This document shows, piece by piece, positions 12,293 to 30,314 of a stretch of DNA of 41,634 nucleotides (positions within the stretch are counted from its first letter, which is position 1; each line of letters opens with the position of its first letter). The notes beneath the pieces were generated by a model that was not told the DNA's origin, searched no databases, and saw only the letters and a list, made by a program, of their open reading frames with translations. The DNA is taken from the NCBI GenBank assembly GCA_002731275.1, contig PCBK01000054.1, positions 17,308 through 58,941 on the forward strand. Direction: 5' to 3'. The position numbers and the translations under genes were made by a program. The stretch comes from Deltaproteobacteria bacterium. Its GTDB lineage: Bacteria; Myxococcota_C; UBA6777.

Positions 12293-13267
12293 ATGGAGAA
12301 CACAATAACACAATCAACAACAGGCTCAGCGATACGCAGTGGAGCCTTTATCGCGCTGCACTTTCTGTGCTTTGCCGCTATCTTTACAGGTGTACACCTC
12401 CAAGACCTGCTCCTCTGTTTTGCGCTGTACTTCATTAGAATGTTTGGCGTGACCGCAGGATACCACCGCTACTTTTCCCACCGTAGCTTCAAGACGAGCC
12501 GGGTCTTTCAATTCCTCTTGGGTTGGCTTGCGATGACATCCGGACAAAAAGGCTGCTTGTGGTGGGCCGCACATCACCGTCATCATCATAAACACTCCGA
12601 CCAAGAAGACGACGTCCACTCACCAAGACAGCAAGGATTTTATTGGTCCCATGTCGGCTGGATTATGTCGGACAAGTGGATGGATACAAACTTCAATAAG
12701 ATCAAAGATCTGACCAAGTATCCCGAGCTTGTTTGGCTCAACAAGATGCAGTCGCTCCCCATTACGCTGCTCGGCATCGCGGTCTGGTGGTTCTTTGGTT
12801 GGAGTGGACTCGTCGTAGGTTTCATCTGGAGCACGGTCCTGTTGTGGCACGGTACATTTACCATCAACTCACTCGCGCACGTCATCGGAAGCGTGAGATA
12901 CAAGACCAAGGATGACAGTAAAAACCACTGGCTCCTCGCGCTTATCACACTTGGCGAAGGATGGCATAACAACCATCACTACTACCAATCCTCCGCAAGA
13001 CAAGGGTTCTTTTGGTGGGAGATCGACATCTCTTATTACATCATCAAGATGCTCTCCTTTGTTGGCATCGTGTGGGATGTTCGTGAACCACCCCAACACG
13101 TCGTCGCAAAAACCATCGCCTCAGAACAAACAGCCCAAGAGTCCGCGCCCAATTTGCTCACCAATCCGCTTCCAGTCGCAAAACAGCACCTCACAAACGT
13201 CTCAGAAGACATGATTCGACAGGCCAAACAAGCCACAACGAACAAGACAACACACTCCACCACCTGA
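12293..13267 (+). CDS. Fatty-acid (acyl-CoA/lipid) desaturase, delta-9 type
   Basis: This is a 324-residue membrane di-iron enzyme. The three histidine boxes are complete: HRYFSH at residues 58-63, HHRHHH at 94-99, and HNNHH at 225-229 within GEGWHNNHHYY. Box spacing and the surrounding hydrophobic helices match the stearoyl-CoA/acyl-lipid desaturase family, which inserts a double bond into a saturated acyl chain and so controls membrane fluidity. GGGAG lies 8 bases before the ATG. The C-terminal 50 residues are polar and look like an unstructured tail. The gene follows the phased repeat array, so expression is probably controlled. The electron donor and exact substrate cannot be told from the sequence. 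Confidence 0.95.
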   Translation: MENTITQSTTGSAIRSGAFIALHFLCFAAIFTGVHLQDLLLCFALYFIRMFGVTAGYHRYFSHRSFKTSRVFQFLLGWLAMTSGQKGCLWWAAHHRHHHKHSDQEDDVHSPRQQGFYWSHVGWIMSDKWMDTNFNKIKDLTKYPELVWLNKMQSLPITLLGIAVWWFFGWSGLVVGFIWSTVLLWHGTFTINSLAHVIGSVRYKTKDDSKNHWLLALITLGEGWHNNHHYYQSSARQGFFWWEIDISYYIIKMLSFVGIVWDVREPPQHVVAKTIASEQTAQESAPNLLTNPLPVAKQHLTNVSEDMIRQAKQATTNKTTHSTT

Positions 13268-13502
13268 GACCGCCGAAAGCGCCAGAAAGCGACCGAAAAA
13301 GAACCCTTCGTGAAGATCGTTGCTGGAGCTTGGAAGTCGAGCTTCAAAAAGCACACAAAAGAAGAATCACCTTCGCCATCCCCCAACACACCTCTTCCCT
13401 CGACAATACGTCTGGTATTTGCACGTAAGTCCCGCTATACTCCCCCCGTCGTTGCAAGAGCAACTCCCCATCCATCACTTTCAAAAAGAACGAAGGACCT
13501 CA

Positions 13503-16500
13503 ATGCGTTACTCCCAAAAGATCTCACTGTTGTTGTTTGGCTCGGGCTTTTGCGCGCTGATCTACCAGATGACCTGGTTGAGAATTTTGCGTTTGGTGTT
13601 TGGTTCAAGTACCTCTGCTTCCTCTGCTGTTCTCGCAATCTTTATGGGCGGCCTGGGCCTCGGCGCGTGGCTCTTTGGTCATCGCGCTGACGCATCCAAA
13701 ACCCCACTGAAATTGTATGCACATCTCGAACTTGGGGTCACACTCGCGGCAGCGATCAGCCCATTCCTCCTCGTCGCCGTCCGAAGCATCTACTTGGCTC
13801 TCGGTGGAGAGGCCCTCTTGGGTTCGACAGGTGGGACCTTGTTGCGTCTTGGATTGTCGGCCTTCGTCTTGGGCATCCCGACTGTTTTGATGGGTGGGAC
13901 GCTGCCTGCCGCAGTCAAAGCCGCAGAGCAACGTGAAGATCTGAGTCGTAGACATCTCGGTTTGATTTACGGAACCAACACCATCGGCGCGGTCCTTGGT
14001 GCCTTTATGACCACATTCTTCTTCCTCGAATGGATGGGCATTCGGATGACTTTGTGGTTCGCCTGTGGGCTAAACTTCTTGATCTTCTTCGCGGCATTGC
14101 GGCTCTTCCAAGTCCACGTAAAAAGCACAACAGAGACCCCCTCCTCCGAAACAGACAACCCCCCGCCCTCCGAAACAGACAACACATCGCGTGAAAAAGG
14201 CCCCTTCGCGTTTCTAGCATTTTCCGCGATGACCGTAGGTTTTGCGTTCTTTTTGATGGAGCTTGTCTGGTACAGGATGCTCTCCCCCCTGTTGGGCGGC
14301 TCGTCTTACACCTTCGGTACGATCTTGATCGTCGCGCTGCTAGGCGTTGGGCTGGGAGGATTGATCTATGCGATGGGGGCACAAAAGAAGCGCCCGACAC
14401 TGCAGCACTTTGCGCTCACCTGTGCGCTGGAGTCCTTCTTCTTGATCATCCCCTTCGCCGCAGGCGACCAACTCGCCTACTTCGCTGCGATCATGAGGGC
14501 TTGGGGAGCGAGCAGCTTCTTCACACTCGTCACCTCATGGCTTTTGATGAGTCTACTTGTTGTGTTTCCAGCCTCCCTGCTTGCTGGCTATCAATTCCCG
14601 CTCCTGATCGCGCTTCTCGGTCCAGGAGAAGAAGAAGTGGGTCAGGAGGTCGGTAGAATCTACGCCTCCAACACATTTGGTTCAATCCTTGGCTCCCTGC
14701 TTGGGGGTTTTTGGCTGATCCCACTGTTTACAGCGACAGGAGTCTGGCGTTGGCTCGCGGTCTTCTTGCTGCTCCTCGCAAGCCTCGCCTTTGTCATGCA
14801 CTTACGCACCTCAACCCCAACACTGACCTCCGGGCTCCTCCTCGTCCTTGGACTCTCGACGATCTGGATGACGACATCAACAGGTCCATCTGCGGCCTGG
14901 AGACATTCGACGATCGGCGCAGGACGCTCAAAACTCGCGACGGCAAAAGACGCCAACAATTTGCGAAAGCAATTTCAAGAGATCCGCTGGTCCACCTTGT
15001 GGGAAAAAGAAGGCCTTGAGAGCAGCATTGGTCTTAACAGGACCAACGGCATATCGCTCTATGTCAATGGAAAGTCAGACGGAAATGCTCGAACGGATGC
15101 TTCTACAGGCGTCTTTCTCAGCCTGTTTCCCGGCGCACTTCACTCCAACCCAAAACACGTCCTGATCGTCGGACTCGGCACTGGCACAACTGCCGGATGG
15201 ATCGCCAAAGACCCTCGTGTCGAACGGGTCGACGTACTGGAGCTTGAGTCTGAAGTGGTCGCGTTCGCCAAACGATGTGCTGCGGTCAACCAAGATGCTC
15301 TCAACAACCCCAAAGTCAATGTCATCATCGGCGACGCAAGAGAGCTCTTGCTCACGACAAAACGAACATACGACATCATCGTCTCGCAACCCTCAAACCC
15401 TTACAGAGCTGGTATTTCAAGCCTCTTCTCGAAAGAGTTTTATGAGGCAGTCATCGGCAAGCTCAAACCAAACGGATTGTTCGCCCAATGGTTACAAATG
15501 TACGAAGCCTCTCCCAAAGTCCTCGGCTCCGTCAGCAAAACATTACAGTCAGTCTTTCCAGCCACTGAACTTTGGGAGTCAGAACAACGCGCCGACCTCC
15601 TCATGGTCTCTGGTCGAAAACGCTGGACACACGACCTCAAAAAACTTCGCAAAAGACTCCAGCTCCCCATCTATCAACAAGCTCTACGCGATATATGGGG
15701 CGTCAAGGGCGTTCATGGTCTGTTCACTGGTTATGTTGGTTCTTTCGACATCATTCGCGATATTGTGAAACAAAACCATGGGCAGCTCAATACTGATGAT
15801 GCTCCATTTGTGGAGTTCGACTTCTCCAAAAACGTCGGTCAAAATGTCCACATCGAAGTGAGTAAGCTGCGCAAACGCGCACACAACATAGGTGCCGCAA
15901 AACCACACACCCACAATGGAACGCTTAATTGGCAAAAAGTCATCGAGTTGAGAAGTAGCCGTACAATCATCGCCTCAGCGCTTATCCCCATCCAACCGTA
16001 CAGCGCAAAGGACAGTGCACGTAGGCAACTCGCCCGCAACCTCTACCAAAAAAAGCAATACTCACGTGTCCTCAAGGTCTGGGATCTCAAAAAGGATTCT
16101 CCCCTCCCTTACGGTGATCTGCTCATGCTCGCCCATGTCACTGTGATGCAAAAAAACCCAGCAGCCTCCTCATACCTTGAACAAATCAAGTCCGTTTACC
16201 CCATAGACTATAAACTCTCGAAGGCACTCCAACACGCGCTCGATAAACAACCTGCAGAAAAGGTTGCGAAGCTCCTTCATGAAGCCTTCAAAGAGGCACA
16301 GACCAACCCATGGTTCTCTGTTGCGCTCATGGAACAGGCTCTCCCGCTCTCTTTTTGGGTTGCAAATCAAAGCAAAGCACACGCGAAGAACCTCTTTGAA
16401 ACACTCAAAACGCCCTTTGCTGTTCGCATCCTCGACCTCGGACGTAGTCTCGCGCGCTTGAGCCTCGCCAATCATATAGGTTTTTTGCAGCACTGTGTCT

Positions 16501-24804: not shown

Positions 24805-24852
24805 TAACCCCTGCATATCTCGATTTTTGGGCAAGTTTCCACTCACCCCTGC
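24805..24852 (+). repeat. Dispersed copy of the 39-bp repeat
   Basis: CCCCTGCATATCTC, then a T-rich piece, GGGCAAGTTTCCACT and CACCCCTGC, match the tandem units at 29205-29438 in order. It lies between two convergent stop codons. Confidence 0.7.
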
Positions 24853-28334: not shown

Positions 28335-28434
28335 TCTCCCTCTCAAAGAATCTCCCCTTCCACAAAAAATGAACTTGATGTGTACCCACCTCGTATGGAC
28401 TTGTGAAACTTGATGGGAACTGGTTGTCACTTCC

Positions 28435-28508
28435 GAGCAAGTAGCCTAATAGGAAAAGGCGTTTGATTTTAGTTCAAAAGACTGATGGTTCGAATCCATC
28501 CTGGTTCA
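28435..28508 (+). tRNA. tRNA with anticodon UUA (ochre-suppressor type)
   Basis: The cloverleaf is nearly perfect. The acceptor GAGCAAG/CTGGTTC has one A-G mismatch and one G-U pair. The D stem is GCCT/AGGC with a nine-base loop holding GG. The anticodon stem TTTGA/TCAAA is perfect with the 7-base loop TTTTAGT. The variable loop has 5 bases, and the T stem GATGG/CCATC has loop TTCGAAT. T8, A14, G18, G19, A21, T33, A58 and the A15-T48 pair are all present. Loop positions 34-36 are TTA, which pairs with the stop codon UAA. The discriminator is A; CCA is not fully encoded (ACCG). Arms GGTTGTCACT (28422) and AGTGACAACC (28531) flank it and could pair in the precursor. The amino acid is unknown; A73 and U35 would suit Lys, which is a guess. 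Confidence 0.75.
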
Positions 28509-28592
28509 CCGAGGGTATATCCCAAAGTGCAGTGACAACCGCCCTCCCCAACAAGCTTTCACTTTTCTTTTCGTGAGCACATTTGGAGCAAC

Positions 28593-29201
28593 ATGGCGAA
28601 CCCAATCTCTCCGACACCCCTTCATACAAAACACACCAAAAACCATGACATCACAGCCGAGAGAGTCAAATTGTTCGGTGTTGATGGTCAATTTTTGGGT
28701 ATCTTCCCAACTGAGAACGCGCTCTTTATCGCCACACAACAAGGTCTGGACCTCGTGATGCTCGACTATACAGAGCTTCCAAGCTGTCGCATCATCGACT
28801 ACGGACACTTTTGTTACACACATCAACAAGAGCAAAAGCGCAGAGACCGACACAAAAAACACAAGATCTTTCGCTTCAGACGCCGGACACAAGAAGAACA
28901 TATCCACTGCTCAACACGAAAGATCATAAGGTGGCTCGAAGCAGGTCACACAGTCATCATCGAGCTCATCAGCCCTCCCCACACACGACATTACGCTAAA
29001 GCACAATTCGACACCATCACCAACCGCTTTGCAACAGAACTGGGCTATCTCGGCGTCTTGACCTTTCCTGAAACACAAATCAAACATGGCTGGCGCGCGT
29101 TCCTCACACCACACACACAACTCCCCCCCGAACACCCTCCTCTCGAAGACACATCCGCACTCACCGCACTACAAGACACATACGAAGATATCCTCTTTTA
29201 A
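28593..29201 (+). CDS. Divergent translation initiation factor IF-3 paralogue
   Basis: This is a 202-residue protein with GGAG 4 bases before the ATG. The N-domain keeps the IF-3 pattern: ERVKLFGVDGQFLGIFPTEN, then LDLVMLDYTELPSCRIIDYG, matching the usual LDLVEVSPNAxPPVCRIMDYG. A basic linker follows. The C-domain begins at IFRFRRRTQEEH, matching the usual IKFRPxTDEHD. The strongly conserved RFRGREM motif of true IF-3 is replaced by ELISPPHTR, and other rRNA-binding positions differ. It is therefore probably not the housekeeping infC, which normally sits with rpmI and rplT; neither is here. IF-3 checks start codons and splits ribosomes, so this paralogue may tune initiation or recycling. It lies 84 bases after the UUA tRNA. 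It ends in TAA with an open frame beyond. Confidence 0.85.
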   Translation: MANPISPTPLHTKHTKNHDITAERVKLFGVDGQFLGIFPTENALFIATQQGLDLVMLDYTELPSCRIIDYGHFCYTHQQEQKRRDRHKKHKIFRFRRRTQEEHIHCSTRKIIRWLEAGHTVIIELISPPHTRHYAKAQFDTITNRFATELGYLGVLTFPETQIKHGWRAFLTPHTQLPPEHPPLEDTSALTALQDTYEDILF

Positions 29202-29204
29202 TCG

Positions 29205-29438
29205 GTCTTTATCAGGCACGTTTCCACTTACCCCTGCATATCTGTCTTTATCAGGCACGTTTCCACTTACCCCTGCATATCTCTTTTGATCGGGCAAGTT
29301 GCCACTTGCCCCTGCATATCTCTTTTGATCGGACAAGTTGCCACTTGCCCCTGCATATCTCTTTTGATCGGACACGTTTCCACTTGCCTCTGCATATATC
29401 TTTTGATCGGGCACGTTTCCACTTGCCCCAGCTTGGGC
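29205..29438 (+). repeat. Six tandem 39-bp repeats
   Basis: Units start at 29205, 29244, 29283, 29322, 29361 and 29400, each exactly 39 bp (13 codons). The core is GTTTCCACTTGCCCCTGCAT with an upstream CTTTTGATCGGGCA part. The third unit forms a perfect hairpin GGGCAAGT/ACTTGCCC. In the frame of the upstream IF-3-like gene the array has no stop and reads repeated PCIS-LLIG-QVATC. Single related copies lie at 24805 and 30379. Confidence 0.9.
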
Positions 29439-29585
29439 ATCGTCTGTCCAAAAACAAAACGAAGACATTTTTTGTGCAAAATGGTGTACGGATTCGACAT
29501 CAATGGTCATAAGGCTGTATACACAAAGGAGACACCAAAACTCCGCTATCGCATACGTACGTTTACAAAAAATGAGGAAAAGAGC

Positions 29586-30314
29586 ATGACGAAGAAAATC
29601 GTGGCAATTGTATCTGGCATCTCCCTGTTGTTGCTGAGCGTTCCAGTCTGGAGCTTCTACGCAGACAAGAAGCAGGAAAAGCTGCTCAAAAAGAGCGTGA
29701 AGAAATGGAATGCTTGGCGAAAAGCAAACCCAAAGACGTGGGTCGTTCTCAACCGCATGAAGGCCAGTAGAGCGGACTTTTATGGTGCCAATCTGTCAAA
29801 GGCCAGGATGAACAACACTTCGCTCTTTTACGCGAATCTCTCAACAGCCAATCTCAAAGAGGCGTTGTTGGGGAATGCGAGCCTCTCAGGAGCCAATTTG
29901 CGCAACGCAGATTTGAGCAAGGCTGACCTCGATGGTGCATATCTCAAACACGCAAATTGCTTTGGTGCCAAGTTCATCTCCGCAAGTTTAAAGAAGACCA
30001 ACGCAAAAGAAGCCTATCTCTGGCAAGCAGATCTGACAAAGGCCAAGATGCAAGAGATCGACCTGAAAAAAGCATCGTTGTGGAGAGCCAATCTTCAGGG
30101 CGCGGATCTGACAAAAGCAAGACTTGATGGAGCAAACCTCTCTGGTGCGAACTTCAAAGACGCAGATCTCACAAAAGCCAATTTGCAAAATGCCTTCCTT
30201 TGGAAAGCCAACCTGAAAGGTGCAACACTCCGTGGTGCAAACTTCACCGGAGCCATTTGGGTCAACGGCAAACAATGTGGTCCTGGTAGCATTGGTCGCT
30301 GCAACCCATTGTAA
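29586..30314 (+). CDS. Secreted pentapeptide-repeat protein
   Basis: This is a 242-residue protein. GAGGA lies 7 bases before the ATG at 29586. The N-terminus is a signal peptide or anchor (KKIVAIVSGISLLLLSVPVW). A basic stretch follows, then about 30 pentapeptide units of the A(D/N)Lxx type from residue 60 to 225, for example SGANLRNADLSKADLDGAYL. These fold into a right-handed quadrilateral beta-helix. The end, IWVNGKQCGPGSIGRC, is a known closing motif of exported members. The frame is also open without a stop for 128 codons upstream, back to the TAA of the IF-3-like gene. Whether it is made only from its own ATG or also as a fusion is not decided by the sequence. A role beyond a surface scaffold cannot be assigned. 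Confidence 0.9.
   Translation: MTKKIVAIVSGISLLLLSVPVWSFYADKKQEKLLKKSVKKWNAWRKANPKTWVVLNRMKASRADFYGANLSKARMNNTSLFYANLSTANLKEALLGNASLSGANLRNADLSKADLDGAYLKHANCFGAKFISASLKKTNAKEAYLWQADLTKAKMQEIDLKKASLWRANLQGADLTKARLDGANLSGANFKDADLTKANLQNAFLWKANLKGATLRGANFTGAIWVNGKQCGPGSIGRCNPL

Follow-up and report, generated by a model that had tools for sequence, protein, structure and literature searches.

A tRNA gene with the stop anticodon UUA and an alanine-type G3·U70 pair in a deltaproteobacterial genome

The tRNA gene and its downstream neighbours

We analysed a 41.6-kb stretch of DNA from a large-genome Deltaproteobacteria bacterium (hereafter the window), in which ARAGORN recognised a tRNA-Stop(tta) at 28435-28510 as the sole tRNA. 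The features of the locus are as follows.

28422-28431, + strand: left arm of a 10-bp inverted repeat, GGTTGTCACT
28435-28510, + strand: tRNA gene with anticodon UUA and an ACCG end without encoded CCA (ARAGORN; Rfam RF00005, 64.2 bits)
28437, + strand: G3 of the G3·U70 wobble pair, an alanine determinant (role from PMC9976931)
28439, + strand: A5, opposite the mismatched G68 (28503); the sole broken acceptor pair
28467-28473, + strand: anticodon loop TTTTAGT, with U34 U35 A36 followed by G37 U38 and thus no A37A38 for MiaA (sequence; ARAGORN)
28469-28471, + strand: anticodon UUA
28505, + strand: U70 of the G3·U70 wobble pair
28531-28540, + strand: right arm of the inverted repeat, AGTGACAACC
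28593-29201, + strand: second, divergent IF-3-like gene (202 aa; TAA stop), whose start lies 82 bases downstream of the tRNA (Pfam IF3_N; NCBIfam infC, 78 bits; PDB IF-3, E 1e-15)
29211-29429, + strand: tandem repeats of 39 bp, downstream of the IF3-like gene
29587-30314, + strand: pentapeptide-repeat gene; probable start of its own, N-terminus signal-peptide-like

The Rfam model matched positions 28435-28508 (E 8e-12; threshold, 29 bits), and the score exceeded those of about two thirds of the 103 tRNA hits in the same genome. The acceptor stem, GAGCAAG/CTGGTTC, contains one mismatch (A28439/G28503), the D arm is GCC..GGC with G18G19, the anticodon arm consists of a 5-bp stem (TTTGA/TCAAA) and the 7-nt loop, and the T arm reads GATGG-TTCGAAT-CCATC. 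U8, A14, A15-U48, G18G19, G26·A44, the T-loop TTCGAAT, and the anticodon arm are all orthodox, and A5/G68 is the only structural fault. These results confirm an earlier note, made from the sequence alone, which had described a well-formed tRNA with a UUA anticodon, canonical bases at nearly all conserved positions, and a single acceptor mismatch. The complete cloverleaf with anticodon UUA found by ARAGORN and Rfam fits a natural ochre suppressor. A73 is followed by CCG, so that CCA is unencoded, and encoded CCA is also absent from most tRNAs in this genome. No promoter-like site was found upstream of the tRNA.

The downstream gene belongs to the IF-3 family, as had been proposed, and the main infC of the genome sits elsewhere (contig C109). 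The second IF-3 protein has a different sequence in place of FRGRE(I/M)AH in its C-terminal domain. The earlier note had suggested looking for the same tRNA beside IF-3-like genes in related genomes; neither such an IF3 paralogue nor such a tRNA was found in four family members, and the tRNAs near IF-3 genes in distant genomes were ordinary ones. The tandem repeat at 29211-29429 comprises 5.6 copies, and a related piece lies at 24808-24852.

Behind the TAA codon of the IF3-like gene, the frame stays open for 370 codons (29202 to 30314) and takes in the pentapeptide-repeat protein; since 39 is a multiple of 3, the tandem repeats remain in frame. This arrangement was at first striking; programmed readthrough of that UAA by the tRNA would fuse the two frames into a protein of 573 aa. 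However, of the 265 genes in those parts of the genome that were sampled, 11 (4%) likewise have 350 or more open codons behind their stop, the intervening stretch begins with tandem repeats, and the pentapeptide-repeat gene possesses its own ATG at 29587 with a ribosome-site-like GAGGAA upstream and a signal-peptide-like start. The open frame was thus judged a coincidence, as it looks to be, and we rejected programmed readthrough at this site as very improbable.

Stop codon usage and acceptor identity

UAA was the commonest stop, ending 103 of 220 long ORFs (47% of sampled genes), in agreement with the earlier observation that many genes here terminate with it. A second stop lay within three codons after 3.9% of the TAA genes, which indicates no backup stops. 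In the relative G003, where no such tRNA was found, the corresponding values were 49% and likewise 3.9%, and the distances to the next stop were similar in the two genomes. Moreover, this genome encodes RF1, RF2 (labels inferred from the two strongest, full-length release-factor matches), and two further RF-1-domain proteins, and none of 151 listed kinase domains contained an in-frame stop. Only the anticodon speaks for genome-wide reassignment or efficient suppression of UAA, but the stop usage, the release factors, and the in-frame-stop check rule it out, and we consider it practically inconceivable. The general or programmed readthrough suggested earlier likewise found no support in these data, in which TAA is undepleted. 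Because UAA is still used as an ordinary stop, any suppression by the tRNA must be weak.

The anticodon loop points in the same direction. The i6A37 modification by MiaA follows an A36A37A38 rule. The A37 and A38 that would favour efficient suppression, without strictly defining a suppressor, are replaced here by G37 and U38. The A36-G37-U38 sequence should prevent i6A37, and weak decoding of UAA is predicted; an all-A/U codon-anticodon helix without this modification should be weak.

The earlier note identified the UUA anticodon correctly and overlooked the alanine-type pair in the acceptor stem, where the major alanine determinant, G3·U70 together with A73, is present. Within this genome, G3·U70 is present in three tRNA-Ala genes and in the window tRNA, and in none of the 71 other tRNAs (a count that excludes the Ro-linked trio described below and two odd clusters). 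G·U accounts for 7.6% of the acceptor pairs in these 71 non-alanine tRNAs, yet never stands at 3:70, which indicates that the genome avoids G·U at that position outside tRNA-Ala. The bacterial alanine identity set consists of A73, G2-C71, G3·U70, G4-C69, and G20 (review, PMC9976931). The window tRNA has G3·U70, A73, and G1-C72 in common with bacterial tRNA-Ala, and its C4-G69 also occurs in the array tRNA-Ala genes of this genome. Unlike bacterial tRNA-Ala, it carries UUA instead of an NGC anticodon for an alanine codon, A2-U71 in place of G2-C71, A20 in place of G20, and the mismatch at 5/68. Judged from these sequence features, the amino acid on the tRNA, if it is charged, would most likely be alanine. 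U35 and A73 presumably leave LysRS as a second candidate.

The inverted repeat, tRNA-shaped RNAs, and origin of the gene

The arms of the 10-bp inverted repeat that the earlier note had seen around the tRNA proved exact. When placed at random in the window, 7 of 3000 trials (0.23%) gave arms of at least 10 bp, and so did none of 86 other tRNAs of the genome, where no arm exceeded 8; the repeat is thus unlikely but not extraordinary. When the outer stem is included in folding, the minimum-energy structure no longer keeps the tRNA cloverleaf.

The repeat gives the locus 5′ and 3′ ends that pair around a tRNA-shaped module, an arrangement shared with YrlA and its relatives, the tRNA-like Y RNAs to which Ro60-type proteins bind. 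The family has Y RNA candidates of its own. In the genome under study (G000), contig C36 encodes at 12935-15338 (L036 9936-12339, listed together with L128, L129, L130, L236, and L237) a divergent Ro60-like vWA protein fused to EF-Tu domain 3; its N-terminus is helical, its vWA_Ro60 match lies below the cut-off of Pfam, and a genome-wide search with the Pfam TROVE family gave no hit despite its presence. Upstream of this gene lies a trio of tRNA-shaped RNAs with the common acceptor GTACAAA and the anticodons CTT, GTC, and TGG, embedded in extended stems that share a motif. Similar RNAs occur beside or upstream of homologous Ro60-like genes in G002, G003, and G004. The C36 set looks like a Ro60/Y RNA system with nearly complete tRNAs as Y RNAs.

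Other tRNA-like loci were also observed in this genome. At C41:44500-46900 (L034 1-2400) and C81:25789-25906 (L039), a conserved insert, TTGTG.GTTTTGTAGAAAAC.CCTCAGCA, replaces the anticodon arm of tRNA-shaped RNAs, and those of C41 adjoin a Ro-like DUF2828/DUF7788 vWA protein. A head-to-tail array of eleven tRNA-like genes of several divergent types, ten with anticodon CAT, lies at C121:35682-36561 (L033 1183-2062). A second, divergent tRNA array at the ends of contigs C65, C200, and C98 (L023/L035, L032, L044) covers most amino acids; its tRNA-Leu genes include some that lack the long variable arm.

Unlike the YrlA-type Y RNAs, the window RNA has a full anticodon arm and a chargeable-looking acceptor; it carries no Ro-type motif, and its surroundings showed no Ro-like gene. 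Both hallmarks of this lineage's Ro-linked RNAs, the acceptor GTACAAA and the stem motif CCTTAC...GAACTCGCACGG, are absent from it, and the 3′ motif occurs nowhere near. Furthermore, no Ro-like family was detected among the 30-odd window proteins scanned, and the Ro-like protein of C36 gave no tblastn match anywhere in the window. As it does not have the stem motif of the family, we did not assign the window tRNA to the Ro60/Y RNAs, and its identity as a Y RNA of the Ro60-like system was rejected.

A broader alternative is that the locus encodes a non-decoding tRNA-shaped RNA, either a Y-RNA-like RNA with a protein-binding stem made by its paired 5′ and 3′ ends, or an alanyl donor for non-ribosomal chemistry. 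The stop anticodon would bar such an RNA from translation. The exact repeat around the tRNA and the precedent of tRNA-shaped RNAs in extended stems by the Ro60-like genes of the family argue for this alternative. The missing stem motif and Ro-like gene argue against it, as do the indication of charging by G3·U70 and A73, the loss of the cloverleaf when the outer stem forms, and the fact that no aminoacyl-transferase family was found adjoining the tRNA. We regard this alternative as possible but doubtful.

In regards to origin, the closest resident tRNAs align with the window tRNA at about 49-51 of 74 positions (~66%). When resident tRNAs were neutrally mutated in a simulation, ARAGORN recognised about 10% of them after 12 changes and 0 of 3000 after 24. 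With no near resident tRNA, and with no tRNA still recognisable after simulated decay to such a distance, the gene is not a long-decayed resident copy, nor does it have the eroded fold or low covariance score of a tRNA pseudogene. As to the decayed gene considered in the earlier note, a recent arrival from another source with slight decay is conceivable. The tRNA probably came by horizontal transfer or arose from a divergent tRNA, and not by mutation of a resident one.

The source was sought in several ways. Searches of four family members, sampled distant genomes, phages, and plasmids turned up no homologue, and a scan of IMG/VR with the IF3-like protein gave no match. A D-arm pattern scan returned 57 viral stretches, 32 of which yielded a tRNA, of many isotypes and never a suppressor; a phage or plasmid origin was rejected on these grounds. 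The upstream patatin gene has a 61% homologue in G003 with no tRNA or IF3 adjoining, and this synteny approach was dropped. It is conceivable, and in our view unlikely, that the gene is a functionless orphan, recently acquired (e.g. from a phage or a tRNA array) and in early decay. Its occurrence in this genome only, the A5/G68 mismatch, the upstream region without a promoter-like site, and a D-arm sequence common among phage tRNAs of many isotypes are consistent with such an orphan. On the other side stand the high Rfam score and the preservation of every conserved position apart from A5/G68; moreover, no phage or plasmid sequence matched, and the window proteins that were scanned included no integrase and no phage family.

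Interpretation as an alanine-type suppressor tRNA

The best reading is probably that of a rare, alanine-type tRNA which is weakly suppressing or non-decoding, and not of a new genetic code. More specifically, we tentatively propose an intact, single-copy tRNA of the natural-suppressor type with predicted alanine identity and predicted weak decoding of UAA. In favour of this proposal are the completeness of the tRNA and its rank among the tRNA hits of the genome, the destruction of the fold expected from neutral decay at such divergence, the restriction of G3·U70 to tRNA-Ala and this RNA, the continued use of TAA as an ordinary stop, and the precedent of suppressor-type tRNAs in a small minority of standard-code bacteria. 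The missing minor alanine determinants (G2-C71 and G20) and the weakening of the acceptor stem by A5/G68 count against it, as do the search for homologues, which yielded none that could indicate selection, and the upstream region, in which no promoter-like site was found.

In the proposed mechanism, the transcript would be trimmed and CCA supplied by the nucleotidyltransferase. AlaRS would then charge the tRNA with alanine through G3·U70, whatever the anticodon. UAA would be read weakly, because A36-G37-U38 offers no substrate for i6A37 formation and because RF1 and RF2 would compete. Such weak reading may result in occasional rescue of UAA nonsense codons or low-level readthrough, with normal termination unharmed.

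Suppressor-type tRNAs occurred in 0.3% of genomes in one survey, and the TTA type in 0.79% of bacteria in another (PMC9858662, PMC13092985). Like these natural suppressor tRNA(UUA) genes, found in <1% of bacterial genomes, the window tRNA has the UUA anticodon, is single, and coexists with the standard code and both release factors. Unlike them, it is no one-base derivative of a resident tRNA, and it has G3·U70, G37, and the bracketing inverted repeat. It is also imaginable, though improbable, that the stop anticodon keeps an alanyl-tRNA off sense decoding and that the tRNA forms a module with the IF-3 paralogue, which would serve as a non-ribosomal alanine donor or insert alanine at UAA in a condition-dependent manner.

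Suppressor-type tRNAs are already known from a small fraction of standard-code bacteria, and the unusual element here is the alanine acceptor. What naturally kept UAA-reading tRNAs carry is seldom known. Since the acceptor predicts alanine and charging by AlaRS would be independent of the anticodon, the purpose of such tRNAs may be reduced to a simple reporter and charging question, the answer to which would also be informative about how a suppressor tRNA can be tolerated in a cell that does not recode.
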